This document shows, piece by piece, positions 5,416 through 20,335 of a stretch of DNA of 64,000 nucleotides (the stretch's first letter is position 1; the number at the start of each line of letters is the position of its first letter). The notes below the pieces were generated by a model, which saw only the letters and a list, made by a program, of their open reading frames with translations, made no database searches and was not told the DNA's origin. Origin of the DNA: Anaerolineae bacterium (GTDB lineage Bacteria; Pseudomonadota; Alphaproteobacteria; DSM-16000; Inquilinaceae); contig JANQQD010000025.1 of the NCBI GenBank assembly GCA_028285185.1, positions 1 to 64,000 of the forward strand, written 5' to 3'. Both the position numbers and the translations under genes were made by a program.

Positions 5416-6534
5416 ATGATCATCAGCCGCACACCCTTTCGCGTGTCCTTCTTCGGCGGTGGTTCCGACTATCCGGGCTGGTATCGGGAGCATGGCGGCG
5501 CCGTTCTCGCCGGTTCGATCGACCGGTTCTGCTACCTGTCGTGCCGCTGGTTTCCGAACTACTTCGACGCGCTCTATCGGGTCGTCTACAGCCGCATCGA
5601 GCTGTGCCAGGCGGTCGATGAGATCGACCATCCTTCGGTTCGGGCCTGCCTGAAGCACATGGGCATCGACCAGGGTGTGGAGATCGTGCACAACGCCGAT
5701 CTGCCGGCACGGTCCGGCCTCGGCTCCAGCTCCGCCTTCACGGTCGGGCTCTTGAACTGCCTCCATGCCCTGCAAGGGCTGAGCCCCGATCATCAGAGCC
5801 TGGCGGAACTCGCCATCCATCTGGAACAGGATGTGATGCGCGAGAATGTCGGCTCGCAGGACCAGATGATGGTGGCCCATGGCGGCCTCAACCATGTTAC
5901 GTTCACGGTGGACGGGTGCACGTCCAGCCCGGTCGACGTCAGTCCGCAGCGGATGGCCGATCTGGAATCCCATTTCATGCTGGTCTGGACCGGACTGTCC
6001 CGCAACTCGTCCGACGTTGCCGTCCACCAGATCCAGAACATTCCGCGCAAGCACGCCGAACTGAAGACGATGCAGTCCTTCGTGGATGTCGCCATCGGCA
6101 TCCTGACCGAAGGCAGCGACGTGAGGGATTTCGGGCATCTGTTGCACGAGACCTGGACGCTGAAACGCACCCTGTCGTCGCACATCACGACACCGCTGGT
6201 GGACGACATCTATGCCGCAGCGCGGTCCGCCGGCGCCCTGGGCGGCAAGCTTCTGGGTGCGGGCGGCGGTGGGTTCATGCTGCTCATGGCCGATCCGGAA
6301 GACCATCCGCGCGTCCGGGAGGCCTTGTCGAGCTTCCGCACGACGACGCTGAAGTTTGAGGGCGACGGCACCCAGATCATCTTCAATAGTGCTCGCCTGC
6401 CCGACAGCGACGCGATTACCCTGCCCGCCAGTTCCCCCGACGCATGGGCCAACGCAGCATGTCTGGAAGCCATTCCATCCTTGTCACAGGCGGCGCCGGA
6501 TACCTCGGCTCAATCATGGTCCCGTGCCTCCTGA
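5416..6534 (+). CDS. hddA: D-glycero-alpha-D-manno-heptose 7-phosphate kinase (HddA-like GHMP kinase)
   Basis: A 372-residue GHMP kinase. The N-terminus (RTPFRVSFFGGGSDYP), the GHMP ATP loop PARSGLGSSSAF at residues 97-108 and the C-terminal KLLGAGGGGFMLL match the HddA group, which phosphorylates heptose 7-phosphate at C1 on the way to GDP-D-glycero-alpha-D-manno-heptose. A fucokinase-like substrate is the alternative. The HddC-like guanylyltransferase at 15.6 kb and the heptose 4-dehydrogenase immediately downstream favour heptose. The family usually ends near the FEGDGTQIIF motif; here about 45 further residues, rich in Ala, Ser and Pro, run into the next gene. The TTAACCAATTGGT motif lies 27-40 bases upstream of the ATG. 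Confidence 0.82.
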   Translation: MIISRTPFRVSFFGGGSDYPGWYREHGGAVLAGSIDRFCYLSCRWFPNYFDALYRVVYSRIELCQAVDEIDHPSVRACLKHMGIDQGVEIVHNADLPARSGLGSSSAFTVGLLNCLHALQGLSPDHQSLAELAIHLEQDVMRENVGSQDQMMVAHGGLNHVTFTVDGCTSSPVDVSPQRMADLESHFMLVWTGLSRNSSDVAVHQIQNIPRKHAELKTMQSFVDVAIGILTEGSDVRDFGHLLHETWTLKRTLSSHITTPLVDDIYAAARSAGALGGKLLGAGGGGFMLLMADPEDHPRVREALSSFRTTTLKFEGDGTQIIFNSARLPDSDAITLPASSPDAWANAACLEAIPSLSQAAPDTSAQSWSRAS

Positions 6535-7403
6535 ATGCAGGGCACAGGGTTACCGTTCTCGACACCTTCATGTACCGCCAGGCCGCTCTGCTGGACGTGT
6601 GCAGCCATCCGCGGTTTTCCGTCGTGCGCGGCGACGCGCGTGACGAGCGGGTGATCGAACCGCTGGCCCGCGAGGCGGACATCGTCATTCCCCTGGCCGC
6701 CCTGGTCGGCGCGCCCCTATGCGATCGCGACGCCATCGGGACCGCCAGCACCAACCGCGACGCCGTCGTGATGCTGACCCGGATCCTGTCGCCGGCGCAG
6801 CGCATCGTCATCCCCAACACCAACAGCGGCTACGGCATCGGCAAGCCCGGCGTGCCCTGCACGGAAGATTCGCCGCTGAACCCCATCTCGCTCTACGGAC
6901 GCACGAAGGTGGAAGCGGAAAAGGCAGTGCTGGAGCGCGGCAATTCCATAAGCCTGCGGCTGGCCACCGTGTTCGGCATGGCGCCGCGCATGCGCATCGA
7001 CCTGCTGGTCAACGAATTCGTCTATCGCGCGGTGAAAGACCGCGTCGTCGTGCTGTTCGAAGCCGACTTCACGCGCAACTACATCCACATCCGCGACGTG
7101 GCACGCGCATTCATGCATGCCATCGACAGTTTCGAGGCCATGAAAGACCAGTGCTACAATGTCGGCCTGTCGGACGCCAATCTGACCAAGCGCCAGCTCT
7201 GCGCCGTGATCCAGAAATACGTGCCCAACTTCCTGACCCTGGAGGCACCGTTGGGCGAAGACCCGGACAAGCGCGACTACATCGTGTCCAACGAGAAGAT
7301 CGAACGCACTGGCTTCAAGCCGGCCCACTCGCTGGACGACGGCATCCAAGAGCTGATCAAGGGCTACACGATGCTGACCAACACCTGCTACGGCAACGTG
7401 TGA
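6459..7403 (+). CDS. GDP-heptose 4-dehydrogenase-like SDR (C. jejuni Cj1427 type)
   Basis: A 314-residue extended short-chain dehydrogenase. The NAD loop TGGAGYLG is at residues 10-17, and the catalytic Tyr146 and Lys150 lie in LYGRTK. Several stretches, IIPLAALVGAPLC-like, IPNTNSGYGIG, NYIHIRDVAR, SDANLTKRQL and GEDPDKRDYIVSN, match from memory the Campylobacter jejuni capsule enzyme Cj1427, which oxidises C4 of GDP-D-glycero-alpha-D-manno-heptose. The match is better than to generic sugar epimerases. The ATG at 6459 is used; one at 6444 is also in frame. Either way the gene overlaps the 3' end of the GHMP kinase in another frame by 76-91 bases. The product would feed the RmlC-like epimerase and a C4 reductase. 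Confidence 0.82.
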   Translation: MSGSHSILVTGGAGYLGSIMVPCLLNAGHRVTVLDTFMYRQAALLDVCSHPRFSVVRGDARDERVIEPLAREADIVIPLAALVGAPLCDRDAIGTASTNRDAVVMLTRILSPAQRIVIPNTNSGYGIGKPGVPCTEDSPLNPISLYGRTKVEAEKAVLERGNSISLRLATVFGMAPRMRIDLLVNEFVYRAVKDRVVVLFEADFTRNYIHIRDVARAFMHAIDSFEAMKDQCYNVGLSDANLTKRQLCAVIQKYVPNFLTLEAPLGEDPDKRDYIVSNEKIERTGFKPAHSLDDGIQELIKGYTMLTNTCYGNV

Positions 7404-7411
7404 GGCCAGGA

Positions 7412-7921
7412 CTACGCACCTGCACCGCGGTCCCGGTTGGAGAGCATAGGCGTTTCGACCGGCCACCAGATGCCGTGTGACGGGTCGTTCCAGCGAACCG
7501 TGAACTGGCTGCCGGGGTCATAGTATTCTGACTGTTTGTAGTGGAACATCGCGCGGTCGGACAGCACCAGGTGCCCGTTTGCGACCCCGGGCGGCACCAG
7601 CACCTGCAAGCGGTTGCGGTCCGTGATGGTGAAGGCCTGCCAGGCTCCCTTCGTCGCCGATCCATTACGACAGTCCAGCACCGCCAGATAGATCTCCCCC
7701 ATCAGGCACGACACCAGCTTCCAGGTCTTCTGGTCGCCATGCAGGCCGCGCAGCACGCCCTTGCGCGAGACGGAGATGTCGTCCTGCACGAACGCCGCCG
7801 TCACGCCCGCCGCCTCGTAGTCGCGCTGGTTGAAGGTCTCGACATAGTAGCCGCGGTGGTCTTCGAAGATGCCCGGCGTAAACGTGATCACACCTTCGAT
7901 GGTCGTCGCTTCGACGTTCAT
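7412..7921 (-). CDS. RmlC-like GDP-sugar 3,5-epimerase (Cj1430-like cupin)
   Basis: A 169-residue cupin of the dTDP-4-dehydrorhamnose 3,5-epimerase family. The conserved RGLHG contains His61 at the position of the RmlC catalytic base. The following pattern, HGDQKTWKLVSCLMGE and later WNDPSHGIWWP, resembles the C. jejuni heptose epimerase Cj1430 more than classical RmlC, which has RGLHYQ. The start ATG at 7921 overlaps the stop of the upstream glycosyltransferase by four bases (ATGA), so the two are co-translated. It probably epimerises C3 and/or C5 of a 4-keto GDP-heptose. It converges on the heptose dehydrogenase gene, leaving eight bases between stops. Confidence 0.8.
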   Translation of the reverse strand: MNVEATTIEGVITFTPGIFEDHRGYYVETFNQRDYEAAGVTAAFVQDDISVSRKGVLRGLHGDQKTWKLVSCLMGEIYLAVLDCRNGSATKGAWQAFTITDRNRLQVLVPPGVANGHLVLSDRAMFHYKQSEYYDPGSQFTVRWNDPSHGIWWPVETPMLSNRDRGAGA

Positions 7922-8796
7922 TCTTCCCCTCGCTCCGGCTCCGGTGCTCCCGTCATACCCCGCAGCACCCGCCACATCGCCTGATGCTGGCGGCCCAGAG
8001 AGACCAGCCAGCCGAGCCCGACGCGACCGGCCTTCAGATCCTCGCGCAGCAAGCGGTTGCGGATGATCGGATCGTATTGTTGGAACAGCGGCATGCGGGC
8101 GGTGACGAAGTTTCCCAGCGGGTCGGCATCGTCGGAGATCTGCTCGCGGATATGATAGTTGGCCAGCGGCTCGGGAAGGAAGCCGATGTCGCCGTGCATC
8201 AGCACCCTCAGATTGAATTCCCAGTCGCCGAGCACGGGCAGGTCGGCGTCGAACCGGCCGACCGCGCCCCAGACCGAGCGGCCGAACAGAAAGGCGATCG
8301 GCGGGAACAGGTTCGCCTGCGCCATGTCCACCAGATGGATGTTGCGCACCCAGTCATTGTAGCGCTCGCGGGCGAGCTCCCGGACGCCGTCCTCGTCCAC
8401 CTGCTCGACGATGCGTATCGAGGCGGTAGCCACGCCGGCATAGTGGGGATGGGCGTCCAGGAAGTACGTGGCCGCCTCCAGATAACGCGGCTGCCAGCTG
8501 TCATCGTCGTCATGGATGACGATATGGTCGGAGGCGACGGCCTCGATCCCTGCGTTGGAGGCCGCCTCGATCCCCAAAGGTTCCGCCAGATGCAGGACGT
8601 GAACCTGCCTCCCGTACCCCCGCGCCCTCGCGGCGGCCGCCTCGACGGGCGCACTGCTGCCGCCATTGTTCACCAGCACCCAGACGAAATCGCGCGCCGT
8701 CTGGTTGACGATGCTGTCGCAGGCGCGGTCCAGCAGCCGCGGCCGATTGAATGTCCGCGTGATCACCGCGACCTTGGCCGAGCGGGCGTCGGTCAT
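7918..8796 (-). CDS. Glycosyltransferase family 2
   Basis: A 292-residue GT-A-fold glycosyltransferase. The N-terminus KVAVITRTFNRPRLLDRACDS is the usual nucleotide-binding strand of GT2 enzymes, and HDDDDSW at about residues 95-101 is the acidic metal-binding motif. LGDWEFNLRV matches the ED-containing acceptor region in position. There is no signal or membrane segment, so it would act at the inner face of the membrane. It is the first gene of a two-gene unit with the RmlC-like epimerase. Donor and acceptor are unknown. The polysaccharide context suggests transfer of one of the locus sugars. Confidence 0.85.
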   Translation of the reverse strand: MTDARSAKVAVITRTFNRPRLLDRACDSIVNQTARDFVWVLVNNGGSSAPVEAAAARARGYGRQVHVLHLAEPLGIEAASNAGIEAVASDHIVIHDDDDSWQPRYLEAATYFLDAHPHYAGVATASIRIVEQVDEDGVRELARERYNDWVRNIHLVDMAQANLFPPIAFLFGRSVWGAVGRFDADLPVLGDWEFNLRVLMHGDIGFLPEPLANYHIREQISDDADPLGNFVTARMPLFQQYDPIIRNRLLREDLKAGRVGLGWLVSLGRQHQAMWRVLRGMTGAPEPERGEE

Positions 8797-10934: not shown

Positions 10935-11726
10935 TTGAGCGAGCACACCTCTGTCGAGGAGACCATCACAAGCCATCTGTCTGCCGGGCCCGACCGCATC
11001 GTGTCCTTCGACATCTTCGATACGCTGCTGCTGCGGCGCTGCGAACCTGAGCTGGCGCGGCTGTTCTCGGTTAGCCGCTGGCAGGCGCGGGCGCTGCGCA
11101 AGGCCGGCATGGACGCCAGCGCGCAGACCGTCTACCGCGCGCGCGCCGTCTATCAGAAGCGGGCCTATGACGATGTCCGCGACGGGACGGGGCCCGAACC
11201 CTGCTACGCCGATATCGCCGACCCGATGATCAGGGATCTGGGCCTGCCGCACGGGTCCCGCCGGCATCTGCTGGAGGCCGAGACGGACTGGGACTTGGCC
11301 CATGTACGCGCCAACGCCGGACTGCTCAGTGCCTTGGCCGCAGCACTCAAGATGGCGCCACCGCCGGCAGCCGTCATCGGTGTGAGCGACATGTATTTCC
11401 CCAAGGCGAGCATCCGCCGCCTCATTCAGACCCATGTCCCCGAACTTGGCGACATACGACTGTTCGTCAGCAGCGACGAACGGGCCAGCAAGCGGCGCGG
11501 CGACCTGTTCCCGCGGGTCGCCCAGGCGCTGGGCGTGGCGGCGAGCACGATCCTGCATATCGGCGACTGTCCCCATGCTGACGGCCGTCAGGCCGAGGCC
11601 GCCGGTTGTCGGAGCTTCCTGCTGCGCCGAAACCGCGTCTGCCGCACGGTTTCGGCCATGCAGGACCACGCGATCCGCTGGGGGCTCCGGCGCTGGCCTG
11701 CAAGGGAGGTTGCGCCGGCAACGTGA
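10935..11726 (+). CDS. HAD-superfamily hydrolase (COG5610 N-terminal type)
   Basis: A 263-residue HAD protein. Motif I is FDIFDTLL at about residues 24-31, giving the nucleophile and acid/base Asp pair (D25, D28). Motif II is VSDMYF, Lys lies in ERASKRRGDLF, and motif III is LHIGDCPHAD. The DIFDTLL plus SDMYF combination is typical of COG5610 proteins rather than of GmhB. It starts with TTG at 10935 behind GGGAG. The all-alpha cap and an intact motif set suggest an active phosphatase. Conceivably it supplies the heptose bisphosphate phosphatase step missing from the locus, but this is speculative. It is the last gene of its unit. Confidence 0.72.
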   Translation: MSEHTSVEETITSHLSAGPDRIVSFDIFDTLLLRRCEPELARLFSVSRWQARALRKAGMDASAQTVYRARAVYQKRAYDDVRDGTGPEPCYADIADPMIRDLGLPHGSRRHLLEAETDWDLAHVRANAGLLSALAAALKMAPPPAAVIGVSDMYFPKASIRRLIQTHVPELGDIRLFVSSDERASKRRGDLFPRVAQALGVAASTILHIGDCPHADGRQAEAAGCRSFLLRRNRVCRTVSAMQDHAIRWGLRRWPAREVAPAT

Positions 11727-11906: not shown

Positions 11907-12872
11907 ATTTTCACGCGCATTCTCGTCACGGGCAGTTCTGCGGTTACGGGAACCGCCGTGCGTGCCGTTGCCGGCGACTATCCACAGTCGCAGTTCGTAT
12001 TCGCCACCTCCAGGGATTGCGACCTGAGGGACATGGGCGGAACCGAAGCCTATGTCCGAGAGACCGGCGTCGACGGCATCGTCCACCTGGCCGCGGTGAG
12101 CGGCGGCATCGGCCTGAGCGCACATCACCAGGCGAGCATGCTGCGCGACAACACGCTGATGACCTTCGCCGTACTGGAGGCCGCCCGCAAGGCCGGCGTG
12201 AAGAAGGTCGTGATGGCGATGACGGCCGGCGGCTACCCGCCCGATGCGCCGCTGCCCTTCAACGAGGCATCGCTGCAGACCGGCTGGCCGCACAAGTCGA
12301 ACTACGGCTCATCCTTCGCCAAGCGGCTGATCGAACCGGCCATCCATGCCTATCGCGACGAGTACGGCCTGAGCGTCGTCGGCCTGATCCCCAACGGCAT
12401 CTTCGGCCCCAACGACAACTTCAACTACGACGATGCGCCGATGCTGCCGGCGCTGATCCGCCGCTTCTACGAGGCGCGCGACGGCAGCGAGCCGGTGGAG
12501 ATCTGGGGCGACGGCAGCCCGGTGCGCGAATACACCTACTCTGAAGACGTGGCCCGGTCCTTCCTGTGGGCGCTGCACGACTACGACGATGCCCAGGTGC
12601 TGAATTCCGGCACGACCGAAGCCAACAGCATCCGCGACATCGCTTTCATGATCGCCGAGATCGTCGGCGTCGACCGCTCGCGCATCGTCTTCAACACCGA
12701 GAAGCCCAACAGCGTGGCTCGGCGCGACACGGACAACAGCCGCTTCGTGGCCGCCTCCGGCTTCCGCTATACCCCGTTCCGCGAAGGGCTGGAGCGGACC
12801 ATAGCCTGGTTCGCCGACACCTACGAAAACCGGCGCGACCAGCTGCGCCTCTACAGCAAGAGCAAGGGCTGA
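11907..12872 (+). CDS. GDP-L-fucose synthase-like SDR with substituted catalytic residues; probable ATT start
   Basis: An extended SDR of the GDP-fucose synthase (GMER, Fcl/GFUS) family, about 321 residues. The first ATG/GTG/TTG in frame is GTG 11958, but that would delete the NADP loop TGSSAVTG, which is encoded just upstream. The frame is open back to TAG 11862, and a GGAAGGG at 11893-11899 sits seven bases before ATT 11907, the most likely start. Compared by eye with E. coli GMER, Ser107 becomes Thr106, Cys109 Gly108, Tyr136 Ser135, Asn165 Gly164 and His179 Pro178; only Lys140 (Lys139) is kept. Binding-site segments such as LAAVSGGIG and FGPNDNF are preserved. The protein should bind a GDP-sugar, but normal epimerase/reductase chemistry is doubtful. 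It begins a tightly packed operon. Confidence 0.78.
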   Translation: MFTRILVTGSSAVTGTAVRAVAGDYPQSQFVFATSRDCDLRDMGGTEAYVRETGVDGIVHLAAVSGGIGLSAHHQASMLRDNTLMTFAVLEAARKAGVKKVVMAMTAGGYPPDAPLPFNEASLQTGWPHKSNYGSSFAKRLIEPAIHAYRDEYGLSVVGLIPNGIFGPNDNFNYDDAPMLPALIRRFYEARDGSEPVEIWGDGSPVREYTYSEDVARSFLWALHDYDDAQVLNSGTTEANSIRDIAFMIAEIVGVDRSRIVFNTEKPNSVARRDTDNSRFVAASGFRYTPFREGLERTIAWFADTYENRRDQLRLYSKSKG

Positions 12873-13888
12873 TGACGATCGCGGATCTCGTGCCGGCCAC
12901 GGCCGCCCTCCGCGCCCGTCCGCTGGGGGCCACGGGTTTGAGGGTCTCCGAAATCGGGTTCGGCACCTGGGGCCTCGGCGGCGACAGCTACGGACAGGTC
13001 GACGACGCGCAGTCCCGGCGCGTCCTTGAGGCCGCATTCGAGCGTGGCGTGACGTTCTACGATACCTCGGATCTCTACGGCGCCGGCCATGCCGAGAGCG
13101 TTCTGGGCGAAGCCTTGCGGCCGGTGCGCGACCACATCGTGATCGCCACCAAGGGCGGGCTGCTGCCGCATACCGGGTTCGCGATGCCCCAGGATTTCTC
13201 CCCCCGGCATCTGCGGGCGGCCCTGATGCGCAGCCTGGACCGGCTGCGGACCGAACATGTCGACCTCTACCAGCTTCACAGCCCCGAGCTGCACCTGCTG
13301 CGCCAGGATCCGGAGATCCTGGGAACGTTGCGGGCATTCCGCGAGGAGGGGCTGATCCGCCATTGGGGTTTGTCGGCGCGCTCTCCGGCCGATGCAGCGG
13401 CGGCGATTGCGGCGTTCGATTTCTCCGTCATCCAAGTCAACTTCAACCTGATCGACCACCGCGCCATCGAGAGCGGCCTGTTGGCCGCCGCCGCGGACAA
13501 GGGCATCGGCGTGATCGCGCGCACGCCGCTGTGCTTCGGTTATCTGAGCGGCAAGCTGACCGGCGAGGAGCGTTTCGAAAACGGCCCCGACCACCGTGCG
13601 AATTGGCCGCAAGACCAGCTTCGCCGCTGGGCGGAAGCGCCGGGCCTGTTCGACGGCATGATCCGCAGGCGCGGATGCACGCCCGCCCAGTTCGCGCTTC
13701 TGTTCTGCCTCGCCCAGCCGGCGGTCTCCACGGTGATCCCCGGCCTGATGACGACCGCGGAGGTGGAGGAGGATGCCGCGGCATCGGCGCTCCCACCCTT
13801 GAGCGACGAGGAACTGGCCGAGATCTCGGCCATCTATGACAGCCGCCAATTCTACGACCCTGTCGCCAAATCACGCGGGAAAGCATGA
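12872..13888 (+). CDS. Aldo/keto reductase
   Basis: A 338-residue NADPH-dependent aldo/keto reductase. The catalytic tetrad is Asp64 and Tyr69 (DTSDLYG), Lys94 (ATKGG) and His136 (YQLHSP). A TIM-barrel C-terminus with TVIPGLMTTAEVEED binds the cofactor. The ATG at 12872 overlaps the stop of the preceding gene as TGATG; the reading frame is open upstream, but that part belongs to the fucose-synthase-like gene. In this operon it could reduce a keto sugar, perhaps replacing the reductase activity that the upstream protein seems to have lost (inference). A general aldehyde reductase is the alternative. Confidence 0.85.
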   Translation: MTIADLVPATAALRARPLGATGLRVSEIGFGTWGLGGDSYGQVDDAQSRRVLEAAFERGVTFYDTSDLYGAGHAESVLGEALRPVRDHIVIATKGGLLPHTGFAMPQDFSPRHLRAALMRSLDRLRTEHVDLYQLHSPELHLLRQDPEILGTLRAFREEGLIRHWGLSARSPADAAAAIAAFDFSVIQVNFNLIDHRAIESGLLAAAADKGIGVIARTPLCFGYLSGKLTGEERFENGPDHRANWPQDQLRRWAEAPGLFDGMIRRRGCTPAQFALLFCLAQPAVSTVIPGLMTTAEVEEDAAASALPPLSDEELAEISAIYDSRQFYDPVAKSRGKA

Positions 13889-14664
13889 GCCAGTCGAACG
13901 ACCGCAGAGACCCCAACCGCTTTCACGAGCCGGCCCGCACCACGACGGCGGAGGTGGATTTCCGCGTTGGGCTGGAGCGCTATTTCGACGAGAGCGTGGG
14001 CTCGAATGTCGAAAAGCTGCAGAACTTCCCGAAATACGTGCCCACCCAGGATCTGCGCCGGTTCGCCGGGCGGTACGAGCTGTTCAAGCAGGTGCTTGAG
14101 GTCCACGGCTCCATCGTCGAATGCGGCGTGCTGTTCGGCGGCGGGCTCATCGGCTGGGCACAGCTCTCCGAGATCTTCGAGCCGTTCAACCACCTGCGGA
14201 CGGTGATCGGCTTCGACACGTTCGAAGGGTTCGTCGAGCTGACGGATCAGGACCGGACGGGCACGGCCGCCCAGTTGAAGCAGGGCGGGCTTGCCATCGA
14301 CGTCTACGAAGACCTGCGCCGCGCGATCGGGCTGTTGGACCAGAACCGCGTGCTGAAGCACATCCCCAAGGTCGAGCTGGTGCGCGGCGACGCCAACGAG
14401 ACGATCCCGGCCTATCTGGAGAAGAACCCGCATCTGGTCGTGAGCCTGCTGTGGCTCGATTTCGACATCTATGCGCCGACGGTGACGGCGCTGCGCCATT
14501 TCGTGCCCCGCATGCCCAAGGGCGCGATCCTGGCCTTCGACGAACTGAACCACTCCGTCTGGCCCGGTGAAACCGTGGCGGTGCTGGAGGAGGTTGGCAT
14601 CCGCAACCTGGAAATCCGGCGGTTCGCCTTCGGGTCCACGGTCTCTTACGCGCGCCTGCAATGA
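13885..14664 (+). CDS. TylF/MycF-type sugar O-methyltransferase
   Basis: A 259-residue protein of the TylF (macrocin O-methyltransferase) family. The SAM loop is VECGVLFGGG at about residues 78-87, followed by GFDTFEGF; the metal-binding acidic cluster is LWLDFDIYAPT at about 191-201, with FDELNH further on. These enzymes need Mg2+ and methylate sugar hydroxyls. The gene overlaps both neighbours by four bases and is thus embedded in the plus-strand glycan operon. A second TylF-type gene lies at 25.5 kb on the other strand. The acceptor position is unknown. Confidence 0.82.
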   Translation: MSQSNDRRDPNRFHEPARTTTAEVDFRVGLERYFDESVGSNVEKLQNFPKYVPTQDLRRFAGRYELFKQVLEVHGSIVECGVLFGGGLIGWAQLSEIFEPFNHLRTVIGFDTFEGFVELTDQDRTGTAAQLKQGGLAIDVYEDLRRAIGLLDQNRVLKHIPKVELVRGDANETIPAYLEKNPHLVVSLLWLDFDIYAPTVTALRHFVPRMPKGAILAFDELNHSVWPGETVAVLEEVGIRNLEIRRFAFGSTVSYARLQ

Positions 14665-15635
14665 TTGCGGCAACCGAGATGCGGCCAAGCCACCACAGCG
14701 GGCAGGACCCGCCGAGCCTCCAGGCCAGCGACTTCGCGCGCCTGTTCGGTGGCACGGAGCGGCAGGTTGTCGAGTGGTGCGCCCCCTATCTCACCGCGCA
14801 CGACTGGCGTTATCGCGTGCTTACCGGGGAAGACCGCGACGCCTGCCTGCTGCAGGCCGTCCACCGGCTGGACCGCAAGGCCGCGCCCGCGGCGGGCACC
14901 GACCGTCAGCCGGACTGGGAAGCCGGATGGCGCCAGAACCTGAACGACTTCCTGGCATCGGGCGGCGACCTCGATGCGCTGGTGCCGAAATACATCCGGC
15001 CGGGGGAGTACATCCGGCTGTTCGGCCAGTATGTCCAGCCGGCGAACCGGGACTTCGTGAAGTTCTATACGCAGATCTTCCGGGCCTGGCTGACGCAACG
15101 GTTCTTCGAGGATGCCGCCGCGGTCTACGAATTCGGCTGCGGGCCATGCTCCCACGTTGCCTATCTGGCCCAGACGCTGGCGGGTGTCCCGGTCTATGGG
15201 TTCGACTGGGCGGAAGCCTCCGGCGACATCCTTCGCGCGATCGCCGATCGGTATGGCTGGCCGGTGGCGGGCGGCCGGTTCGATTTCTTCGCGCCCGATC
15301 CCGGCGTGGTTCTGGACGATGGCGCGGTGGTGCTGACCTTCGGTGCGCTGGAGCAGGTGGGCGGCGACCATGGGGCTTTCCTGGACTTCCTGCTGGCCAA
15401 CCGGCCCCGCCGCTGCGTCCATGTGGAGGGGCTGGAAGAGCTGTACGACGATCGCGACCTGCTGGACGCGCTGGCGCGCCGGTATCACCGGGGCCGCAAC
15501 TACCTCTCAGGCTTCCTGACTCGGCTGCGGGCGCTGGAGGGCGAGGGTCGGATCGTCATCGAGAGCGTCCACCGGCACCATTTCGGCACCCGCTTCGACG
15601 ACACATTCTCTTACGTGGTCTGGCGCCCGGCATGA
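14661..15635 (+). CDS. SAM-dependent methyltransferase-like protein, divergent
   Basis: A 324-residue protein. A Rossmann methyltransferase core begins at about residue 154 with VYEFGCGPCSHVAYLA, followed by VYGFDWAEAS and VLTFGALEQVGGDH. The 150 residues before it are helical in character, with many acidic and aromatic residues, and show no known motif. The core recalls methyltransferases of polysaccharide loci that act on sugars, but the Cys-Pro-Cys in the glycine-rich loop is unusual. It overlaps both neighbours by four bases. Function beyond probable methyl transfer cannot be stated. Confidence 0.68.
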   Translation: MIAATEMRPSHHSGQDPPSLQASDFARLFGGTERQVVEWCAPYLTAHDWRYRVLTGEDRDACLLQAVHRLDRKAAPAAGTDRQPDWEAGWRQNLNDFLASGGDLDALVPKYIRPGEYIRLFGQYVQPANRDFVKFYTQIFRAWLTQRFFEDAAAVYEFGCGPCSHVAYLAQTLAGVPVYGFDWAEASGDILRAIADRYGWPVAGGRFDFFAPDPGVVLDDGAVVLTFGALEQVGGDHGAFLDFLLANRPRRCVHVEGLEELYDDRDLLDALARRYHRGRNYLSGFLTRLRALEGEGRIVIESVHRHHFGTRFDDTFSYVVWRPA

Positions 15636-16351
15636 GTATCCCGGCTCTCTCCGGCATCGATGTCGCCATCCTGGCCGGCGGCTTGGGAACACGGCTGCGC
15701 CCGGTGTTGCCGGACACGCCGAAGATCCTGGCCCCGGTTGATGGGCGACCGTTCCTGGAGATCCTGCTGGACCACCTCCAGCGGTGCGGCGCAGGGCGCG
15801 TGGTACTGTGTCTCGGCCATCTCGCCAGCCAGGTCGAGGCCTGGCTGGCAGCAGCGCCGATGAGACAGCAAGAGATCGTGCTCAGCGTCGAGACCCAGCA
15901 ACTGGGCACGGCCGGGGCGCTGCGTCTCGCTCGCACTCTGCTGACGTCCGATCCGGTGCTGGTGATGAACGGCGACACGTTCTGCGATGCGGACTATGCC
16001 GCCATGGTAGCGGGGCACCGCGCGGAGGGTGCCACGCTGCTCTGTGCGCACCAGCCGGACGCGAGCCGGTACGGCGCCATCACCGTCGGCGACGACGGCA
16101 CGGTGCTGACGTTCAGTGAGAAGGAACCGGGGCCGGGCCGCCCCGGCCTGATCAACGCCGGCGTCTATCTGTTCAGCGGCAAGGTTCTGGACACGATCGC
16201 AGGCGGACATGCCAGGTCGCTCGAACGCGATATCCTGCCCCGCATCATCGGCATGCGCGCAGTCCGCCACGACGGAGCGTTCATCGATATCGGCTTGCCG
16301 GAGACGCTGAGGCTGGCCGCATCAGTGGTTGGCGGAGCCCATGCCGCCTGA
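15632..16351 (+). CDS. hddC: Nucleotidyltransferase, HddC-like heptose 1-phosphate guanylyltransferase
   Basis: A 239-residue sugar nucleotidyltransferase. The signature LAGGLGTRLRPVLPDTPK lies at about residues 13-30, VMNGDTF is the metal-binding Asp site at about 110-116, and INAGVYLF and FIDIGLPETL complete the pattern. Length and sequence fit HddC (D-glycero-alpha-D-manno-heptose 1-phosphate guanylyltransferase) and related mannose-1-phosphate guanylyltransferases. HddA in the same locus favours heptose. The start ATG at 15632 gives a four-base overlap with the upstream methyltransferase gene. Confidence 0.78.
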   Translation: MSIPALSGIDVAILAGGLGTRLRPVLPDTPKILAPVDGRPFLEILLDHLQRCGAGRVVLCLGHLASQVEAWLAAAPMRQQEIVLSVETQQLGTAGALRLARTLLTSDPVLVMNGDTFCDADYAAMVAGHRAEGATLLCAHQPDASRYGAITVGDDGTVLTFSEKEPGPGRPGLINAGVYLFSGKVLDTIAGGHARSLERDILPRIIGMRAVRHDGAFIDIGLPETLRLAASVVGGAHAA

Positions 16352-18498: not shown

Positions 18499-18518
18499 GC
18501 AGCCGGTCAACCGGCTGC
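18499..18518. terminator. Perfect inverted repeat between convergent genes
   Basis: GCAGCCGGTCAACCGGCTGC is a perfect inverted repeat: arms 18499-18507 and 18510-18518. It lies across the convergent 3' ends of the CgeB-like gene and the transketolase gene, covering the stop codon of the latter. It has no clear U-tract on either side, so it may stop transcription weakly, or only protect 3' ends. This is inference from structure and position. Confidence 0.4.
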
Positions 18519-19484
18519 GCGCAGATAGGCCGGGCGATCCATCAGCCAGGACTGCACCGTCTCGGCGATGCCATCTGCATCCAGGCCGCGCTGGCCATGC
18601 AGTGGGCCCCGTTCCCCGTAGGCGTAGACATGGTGGTCTTCGATTGCGAGGCGCTTGAGCGGCCGCAGCAACCCTTCGTCTGCCATGTACTCGGCGATCA
18701 TCCCGCCAAGGCCCCCATGGGCGCCCTGTTCCTCCAGCGTCACCAGCCGTGTGGCCGACCCGATCGCCTCTCTGAGCGCGGCTCCATCGAGAGGCTTCAG
18801 ACGCGTCAGATCGATAACGCGGGCGGCCACACCCTTGTCCGCCAGCAGCGCGGCGGCCTCCAGTGCCCGATGGACCATCACGCCGGTGGAAATCAAGGCA
18901 ACGTCGGAGCCCTGCCCGAAAACGCGCAGTCCCTTAGTCGTATCCAGATCGCCCAACAGCGGCCACTTGCCACGGTCGAAGCGCAGATAGCTCGGCCCCG
19001 GCAGATCGCGGATCATCGGCGCCAGCGCCCCGGCGACCCCCGGCTCAGAAGGCGACCAGATCGCCAGCCCGGTCAGCGCCCGCATGATGGCGATATCTTC
19101 CGTGGCATGATGGGTCGGCCCGTCGGCCGGATAGGCGTACCCGCTGCCGACGCCCAACAGCATCACCTTCGCCCCCATGACGCAGATATCGACCTTGATC
19201 TGCTCCAACGCCCTGAGCGTGAGGAAGCTGGCGATGGAATAGACGATGGGCTTGCGGCCGGCGAGCGCCATACCCGCCGCCATGGAGATCATGTTCTGCT
19301 CTGAAATGGCGGCGTTGATGAACTGTCGCGGCCGGTCGGCACGGAAGCGGTCGAGGCTGGGGGCGCCGAAATCGTTCGACAGCACCACGACCGCCGGATC
19401 TTCTGCAGCGATGTCGTAGAGCGCGCCGAAGAAGGCGTCGCGCATGTCCGTCTTGGACATCGGGTGAGACGCGGTTGCGGTCAT
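18507..19484 (-). CDS. Transketolase, C-terminal (pyrimidine/transketolase_C) subunit
   Basis: A 325-residue protein corresponding to the second half of a transketolase. The pyrimidine-binding domain has INAAISEQNMISMAAGMALAGR with the TPP-activating Glu, then SGYAYPADGPTHHATEDIAIMR. A transketolase C domain follows from about residue 195 (VALISTGVMVHRALEAA). It overlaps its N-terminal partner by four bases. Together they would be a heterotetrameric transketolase as found in polysaccharide and secondary-metabolite clusters. It acts in the cytoplasm, transferring ketol units. A locus-specific role, such as supplying sedoheptulose 7-phosphate or making a branched sugar, is inference. Confidence 0.85.
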   Translation of the reverse strand: MTATASHPMSKTDMRDAFFGALYDIAAEDPAVVVLSNDFGAPSLDRFRADRPRQFINAAISEQNMISMAAGMALAGRKPIVYSIASFLTLRALEQIKVDICVMGAKVMLLGVGSGYAYPADGPTHHATEDIAIMRALTGLAIWSPSEPGVAGALAPMIRDLPGPSYLRFDRGKWPLLGDLDTTKGLRVFGQGSDVALISTGVMVHRALEAAALLADKGVAARVIDLTRLKPLDGAALREAIGSATRLVTLEEQGAHGGLGGMIAEYMADEGLLRPLKRLAIEDHHVYAYGERGPLHGQRGLDADGIAETVQSWLMDRPAYLRAAG

Positions 19485-20335
19485 GGCTCTGCCCTGTTCA
19501 GTTGCGCGCGGGCTTCATCGATCAGGTCGTCGGTCACGCCCCGCACGTGCCAGATGGGATCGTTCTCGAACAGCGTGACGCCCTTGCCTTTGGTGGTATG
19601 GGCGATCACCAACAGTGGACGGTCGGCCCGCCGCGGGCGCTCACGCGGCAGCGCTTCGAGCAACTGACCGAAATCGTGGCCATCGGCGACCTCCACCACA
19701 TCCCACCCGAAGGCCTTCCATTTGTCAGCAAATGGCTCCAGCGCGATGTAGTTCTCAGTGAAGTCCAGCGAACCGATATAGTTGCGGTCGACGATGGCGA
19801 TCAGGTTGTCGAGGCCGTGCCGTGCGGCGAACAGCGCCGCCTCCCACACCGATCCTTCGGAGCATTCGGCGTCACCCATGATGACGAAGTGGTTGTGGTC
19901 GGCGCCGGCCTCTTTCGCCGCCCAGGCCATACCGCAGGCGATTCCGAGGCCGTGACCCAGCGCGCCTGCGGTCGTCTCAACCCCCGGCACCTTGTGGTCG
20001 ACATGCCCACCTAACCGGCACAGCCCCTTGCGGTACGAGGTTTCCGTCCACTCCTTCGGGAAGTAGCCGAGATCCGCCAGGGCAGCGAACAGCAGGGTCT
20101 CGCCGTGTCCCTTGCTGAGCAGCAGACGGTCGCGGCGCTCCCATTGCGGGTTCGTCGGATCGTGCCGCAGCACACCGCCCCAATAGAGGGCGACCAGGAT
20201 CTCGACATAGGAATAGCAGGTGGAGATGTGGCCCCCGGCCGCATAGCACATCTCCAGCACGGCCTTGCGCAACTCATTGGCCTTTCGGGCCAGCGAACCA
20301 TGGTCGGAACCAGTCTGGGCGTCTCGTAGGGTCAT
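19481..20335 (-). CDS. Transketolase, N-terminal (TPP-binding) subunit
   Basis: A 284-residue protein equal to the TPP-binding half of transketolase. It shows LLSKGHGETLLFAAL, GHVDHKVPGVETTAGALGHGL and the TPP motif that begins GDAECSEG and ends at DRN about 30 residues later. The GDG of the classical motif is GDA, which is common in split transketolases. It overlaps the C-terminal subunit gene by four bases and starts six bases after the end of the large TPR glycosyltransferase gene, so the three are probably one transcript. Reaction as for the partner subunit. Confidence 0.85.
   Translation of the reverse strand: MTLRDAQTGSDHGSLARKANELRKAVLEMCYAAGGHISTCYSYVEILVALYWGGVLRHDPTNPQWERRDRLLLSKGHGETLLFAALADLGYFPKEWTETSYRKGLCRLGGHVDHKVPGVETTAGALGHGLGIACGMAWAAKEAGADHNHFVIMGDAECSEGSVWEAALFAARHGLDNLIAIVDRNYIGSLDFTENYIALEPFADKWKAFGWDVVEVADGHDFGQLLEALPRERPRRADRPLLVIAHTTKGKGVTLFENDPIWHVRGVTDDLIDEARAQLNRAEP

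Follow-up and report, generated by a model that had tools for sequence, protein, structure and literature searches.

We found that SDRx, a 321-residue protein encoded in the window (the whole 64,000-nucleotide stretch of DNA analysed here), is a relative of GDP-L-fucose synthase (GFS; Fcl/GMER in E. coli, GFUS in human) in which nearly all the known catalytic residues are replaced, and that orthologues in three phyla share these replacements. Rather than the product of a damaged gene, SDRx is probably either a conserved partner protein that binds sugar or an enzyme whose chemistry is new. The reading that we favour, at a little less than even confidence, is a pseudo-reductase: a protein that binds a GDP-4-keto-heptose without reducing it and acts as partner to the aldo/keto reductase (AKR) encoded next to it, perhaps for a C4-branched heptose.

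We aligned SDRx with Fcl (reference sequence from E. coli K-12) and human GFUS, to which it is 26% and 35% identical (phmmer ~1e-32 for E. coli GMER and 7e-61 for GFUS). Ser107, Cys109, Tyr136, Lys140, Asn165 and His179 of the E. coli enzyme correspond to Thr106, Gly108, Ser135, Lys139, Gly164 and Pro178 of SDRx. A preliminary description, aligned by eye to GMER and GFUS, had listed exactly these five changes (S107T, C109G, Y136S, N165G and H179P), with Lys140 as the only one of the named catalytic residues kept, and our alignments agree with it throughout. One further loss is that of Gly13, the second glycine of GxxGxxG, which is Ala12 in SDRx. The GDP-site residues Arg187, Trp202 and Arg209 are kept (Arg186, Trp200 and Arg207); Lys283 is Arg in SDRx and Lys in its orthologues. 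The side-chain volume removed by the five pocket substitutions is ~220 cubic angstrom, compared with 140 for the sister clade described below. Gly108 and Pro178 fall at positions 110 and 180 of Campylobacter jejuni DdahC, which set active-site volume and heptose use in that enzyme (PMC7949155). SDRx scored 171.9 bits against the NCBIfam equivalog for GDP-L-fucose synthase (NF047922), below its 500-bit cut-off; the two GFS genes of ordinary type that the genome carries on other contigs scored 522 and 499.5. As Tyr136 or Lys140 was missing from none of the canonical relatives scored, the losses in SDRx are not due to chance.

The AlphaFold2 model of SDRx (19 sequences, with plasmid-derived rows left out of the folding alignment) had a pLDDT of 93.6 and a pTM of 0.92, and shows the extended SDR fold of GFS. 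The PDB entries that matched it best were of human GFUS with NADP and GDP-fucose, at a TM of 0.91 and an rmsd <2 Å. A possible substitute for Tyr136 named in the preliminary description is Tyr133. Tyr133, Ser135 and Lys139 all lie on helix 130–140 of the model. Two positions along a helix turn a side chain to roughly the opposite face, so Tyr133 should point away from where the missing Tyr stood. Judged by helix phase in the model, Tyr133 is unlikely to replace Tyr136, and no other Tyr appears to do so.

Six orthologues with the same changes, 57–72% identical to SDRx, were found in three phyla: on plasmid pAB510f of Azospirillum sp. B510 (72%), in two Desulfobacteraceae MAGs (60–61%) and in three Planctomycetota genomes (57%). 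All seven clade members have lost the residues equivalent to S107, C109, Y136, N165, H179 and G13; the Ser–Tyr–Lys reduction triad (S107T, Y136S; K140 kept) and the Cys109/His179 epimerase dyad (C109G, H179P) are absent from every one. The loss of catalytic residues goes together with purifying selection: dN/dS was 0.08–0.14 among the three planctomycete copies of SDRx, as low as for the AKR and transketolase beside it. We found no SDRx relative in IMG/VR, and the phage search gave canonical-like hits only (30–33%) and no SDRx-type copy.

The SDRx frame is open and coding from 11865 to the TGA at 12870–12872, which bears out the earlier view of an intact gene. ATG, GTG or TTG was not found at the expected start, and the start codon is most likely ATT at 11907–11909; a good Shine–Dalgarno sequence (GGAAGGG) lies 7 bases 5′ of it, and the Azospirillum orthologue has ATG at the matching position. 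The first common in-frame start is GTG at 11958, use of which would remove the nucleotide-binding (Rossmann) motif; standard gene callers would place the start there and lose the motif. The assembly consists of 402 contigs with 8.5% contamination. The ATT start, and changes found only in this genome's copy, could speak for sequencing error or pseudogene decay as the source of the substitutions; however, the identical losses occur in six more proteins of three phyla with all frames open. With the same changes clade-wide and dN/dS at ~0.1, neither error nor local decay explains them: the explanation is refuted for the clade and highly improbable for this copy. Otherwise fixed sites were changed at 19 of 159 positions in SDRx of this genome, against 7 of 147 in the Azospirillum orthologue, and these extra changes, together with the ATT start, hint at looser constraint in this genome's lineage.

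A sister type, 46–50% identical to SDRx, is present in four genomes of SDRx's own class, taken to be Alphaproteobacteria on the strength of the match to Azospirillum. It keeps Ser107, Tyr136, Lys140 and GxxGxxG, and has C109G, N165G and H179T. Fuller class and phylum searches turned up only these four sister-type genomes (own class) and one further planctomycete orthologue. In the tree, the SDRx type forms one clade (support 99/89) and the sister type another (100/99); the two are joined at 100/98, nearest to human-type GFUS and apart from the E. coli-type enzymes. The existence of a clade that has Ser, Tyr and Lys and lacks Cys, Asn and His argues that the losses were stepwise; as read from these sequences, the epimerase residues would thus have gone first, and Tyr, Ser and the Rossmann glycine afterwards. 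The sister type also bears on the suggestion that SDRx is a C4-ketoreductase like DdahC/MlghC, working weakly without Tyr through Ser135 or Thr106. SDRx does fill the GFS-like slot of the Campylobacter heptose pathway, near a relative of the C4-dehydrogenase Cj1427. However, the sister-type and Campylobacter reductases keep Tyr, which in E. coli GMER is the general acid/base for reduction (Tyr136; PMC7949155), and AKR would be redundant, so that we consider this suggestion improbable.

SDRx belongs to a cassette of sugar-modifying genes (Table 1). The preliminary description had placed it in an operon next to an aldo/keto reductase; indeed, the SDRx–AKR–TylF–MT2–HddC junctions overlap as ATGA or TGATG. 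SDRx, AKR and the TylF-like gene are consecutive in all seven loci, followed by MT2, so that orthologues with the same substitutions do lie beside the same AKR; in the planctomycete loci a B12-type radical SAM gene stands between TylF and MT2. By its motifs, AKR has an intact Asp/Tyr/Lys/His catalytic tetrad. MT2 matched no Pfam family. AKR and TylF flank 7/7 SDRx-type and 0/46 canonical GFS loci (Fisher 6e-9, a value made optimistic by shared ancestry, as related loci are counted as independent), while Gmd flanks 31/46 canonical and 0/7 SDRx-type loci. Loci on long enough contigs also carry SDR1, a GHMP (heptose-type) kinase, a split transketolase and an RmlC-type epimerase; the HddC-like gene is present in SDRx's own locus and in those planctomycete loci that extend far enough to include it. 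SDR1 has an intact Tyr-x-x-x-Lys, is 58–72% identical between cassettes and matches PDB entry 6VO6, which we take to be Cj1427. The SDRx locus thus holds a Cj1427-type C4-dehydrogenase and GDP-heptose genes.

Table 1. Features of the SDRx cassette in the window
Feature	Position	Strand	Evidence or remarks
Cassette part	5416..6534	+	
SDR1, relative of Campylobacter GDP-heptose C4-dehydrogenase Cj1427	6444..7403	+	phmmer 3e-111 to PDB 6VO6
RmlC-type sugar 3,5-epimerase	7412..7975	-	NCBIfam TIGR01221 above cut-off; also in L035, L054, L092
SDRx, GDP-fucose-synthase-like protein without catalytic residues	11907..12872	+	T106, G108, S135, K139, G164, P178; A12 in GxxAxxG; ATT start likely
Aldo/keto reductase (AKR), 338 aa	12872..13888	+	Pfam PF00248 6e-61; tetrad motifs; start overlaps SDRx stop
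TylF-like O-methyltransferase	13885..14664	+	PF05711 1.7e-7; start overlaps AKR stop; 7/7 loci
MT2, methyltransferase-like by eye	14661..15635	+	in 7/7 loci
HddC-like sugar-1-phosphate nucleotidyltransferase	15632..16351	+	tblastn 42% to L035 copy; start overlaps MT2 stop
Split transketolase, C-terminal subunit	18507..19484	-	catalytic Glu kept; Ser385/His461 equivalents lost
Split transketolase, N-terminal (ThDP-binding) subunit	19481..20335	-	PF00456 2e-39

The two transketolase genes are found 6 kb downstream of SDRx, on the opposite strand. Every other locus with such a pair has it on the strand of SDRx and upstream of that gene, immediately upstream in Azospirillum and the planctomycetes. 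We compared the cassette subunits with E. coli TktA. His26, His66, His100, His261, Glu411 and His473 are kept; His461 is Gly in five of five cassette transketolases, and at Ser385 the cassette proteins have Ala, Val or no residue. Ser385 and His461 bind the phosphate of the normal substrates, and an ordinary split transketolase encoded in the same planctomycete genome as a cassette pair keeps both. By their sequences, the pairs are two-gene ThDP enzymes with catalytic residues and an altered acceptor-phosphate site. For miharamycin and amipurimycin, it has been proposed that split transketolases attach a hydroxyacetyl unit to keto sugars (PMC12247030), and the AKR Pau7 reduces such a branch ketone in paulomycin (PMC4753412). 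The same 2025 review lists 13 candidate ketone-accepting split transketolases, all from Streptomycetes, and describes their action on nucleotide-linked ketones as still pending (PMC12247030). Against a role in branching, the cassette enzyme could simply supply sedoheptulose 7-phosphate, and the pairs of different phyla are just 29–39% alike. The Campylobacter heptose pathways appear to need no such transketolase, and the word 'transketolase' is absent from a review of them.

In the pathway that we propose, the kinase and HddC would make GDP-heptose, SDR1 would oxidise its C4, and the split transketolase would put a two-carbon hydroxyacetyl unit on the resulting ketone. AKR would supply the NADPH chemistry, reducing the new branch ketone, and TylF/MT2 would methylate the product. 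SDRx, descended from a GDP-fucose synthase and retaining its fold and, presumably, the GDP-sugar side of its pocket, could neither epimerise nor reduce by known chemistry; it may keep hold of the keto- or branched sugar or present it, and guard C4 from reduction. A sugar-binding partner is the best explanation because the widened pocket has no acid/base and the cassette has an intact reductase of another family. The suggestion of the preliminary description that AKR replaces the reductase step, at C4, is no more than a possibility; the split transketolase would provide AKR with an alternative substrate. As for the pathway as a whole, it is possible, though doubtful, that split transketolase, pseudo-GFS and AKR make up a previously undescribed Gram-negative route to C4-branched, O-methylated GDP-heptoses, with the emptied GFS pocket presenting the keto- or branched sugar.

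The main rival is that SDRx is catalytically active but has a different chemistry, e.g. as a non-redox isomerase, dehydratase or epimerase that relies on residues specific to the family together with Lys139 and Thr106. Across phyla, the motifs of the emptied active site (TTGMYP, SNYGSSFAKRL and NYDDAPM) are strictly kept, with small departures only, and the low dN/dS points the same way. 4,6-Dehydratases, however, carry Asp/Glu in the Ser-x-Cys motif region; that of SDRx has neither, and we rejected this chemistry for it. There is a precedent in SDRs that depart from Ser–Tyr–Lys and are still C6-dehydratases (Creuzenet 2002, 'Variation from the SYK dogma', as cited in PMC7949155). In SDRx, however, no conserved acid/base besides Lys139 replaces Tyr, Cys or His, and the second Rossmann glycine is Ala in 7/7, which leaves different chemistry a serious possibility but a rather unlikely one. 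The intact fold, the lost catalytic residues and the tight gene overlap with AKR would also suit a regulatory subunit (MAT2B- or NmrA-like) that senses nucleotide sugar or NADP(H) and controls AKR or the transketolase; this is distinctly unlikely, given the altered GxxAxxG motif and a cassette in which no member resembles a regulated switch.

A sister locus bears on the age of the proposed partnership of SDRx with AKR. In L090:1566-3515, AKR and a sister-type GFS-like SDR are fused in a single, natural-looking frame of 650 residues on one contig. Both the fusion and the gene adjacency are suggestive of a partnership. Two observations count against our reading of it. The SDR part of the fusion still has Ser, Tyr and Lys, so the partnership may predate the loss of Tyr. 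In three of the four sister genomes AKR lies elsewhere, beside another SDR in two (G141 and G111) and with no SDR found beside it in the third (G291). In G141 and G111 the neighbours of a related AKR, next to flagellar genes, are a gene for a radical SAM protein and a different GFS-like SDR in which Tyr is displaced; such loci beside flagellar genes are L105:5751-10139 and L107:9483-13660, where the radical SAM protein is B12-binding and the Tyr is shifted by one place. Plasmid p2 of Azospirillum sp. TSA2s (L093:653-12969) carries a parallel cassette of a second type, with a Gmd-like dehydratase, a split transketolase, TylF-like and MT2-like proteins, a radical SAM protein, a 47% AKR, a GFS-like SDR with Tyr changed to Val and a second SDR with Lys changed to Arg. 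A 794-residue protein of this cassette is resembled, in its N-terminal part, by the HAD-like protein encoded immediately upstream of SDRx (10935–11726). The pairing of AKR with a non-standard GFS-like SDR thus recurs. So does that of GDP-heptose genes with a two-gene ThDP enzyme: in sister-type genomes the SDR1, HddC and kinase genes have as neighbours a DegT aminotransferase and a ThDP enzyme of E1 type encoded by two genes. Such clusters, with a heptose-type kinase and E1 alpha and E1 beta ThDP subunits, are L108:7828-13857, L109:5782-12996 and L110:6213-13334, the first near flagellin genes; they may encode a further route to a modified heptose by way of a two-gene ThDP enzyme.

If the sugar-binding reading is true, SDRx would exemplify a nucleotide-sugar SDR whose sugar site persisted as its chemistry was lost stepwise (from canonical, through loss of the dyad, to loss of Tyr), with the intermediate stage, dyad lost and Tyr kept, surviving in living genomes. 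The cassette would be a concrete test case for whether split transketolases accept nucleotide-linked ketones. Annotation by similarity is liable to name proteins of the SDRx clade GDP-fucose synthase, and glycan predictions built on that name would go astray. We found no paper in the literature that joins GDP-L-fucose synthase with 'pseudoenzyme'.

SDRx shares fold, length and GDP-site residues with GDP-L-fucose synthase (Fcl/GMER, GFUS), but differs from it in the replaced active-site Ser, Cys, Tyr, Asn and His and Rossmann Gly, and in having no adjoining Gmd. The SDR pseudoenzymes MAT2B and NmrA keep the Rossmann SDR fold, have lost catalysis and have a proposed binding role; SDRx resembles them in the kept fold and lost catalytic residues, although they belong to another SDR branch and binding by SDRx is putative. 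DdahC and MlghC/Cj1428 of C. jejuni are also GFS-like, with the Cys/His dyad lost or partly so, and work beside a Cj1427-type dehydrogenase and an RmlC-type epimerase, both types also present in the SDRx cassette; unlike SDRx, which has lost both Tyr and Ser, they keep Ser–Tyr–Lys and reduce. With the branched-sugar routes of miharamycin/amipurimycin (split transketolase, proposed) and paulomycin (Pau7) the cassette shares a keto-sugar-forming dehydrogenase, a two-gene ThDP enzyme and an AKR in one cluster; in contrast to them, the SDRx cassette stands in Gram-negative glycan-type loci and combines GDP-heptose genes with a pseudo-GFS.
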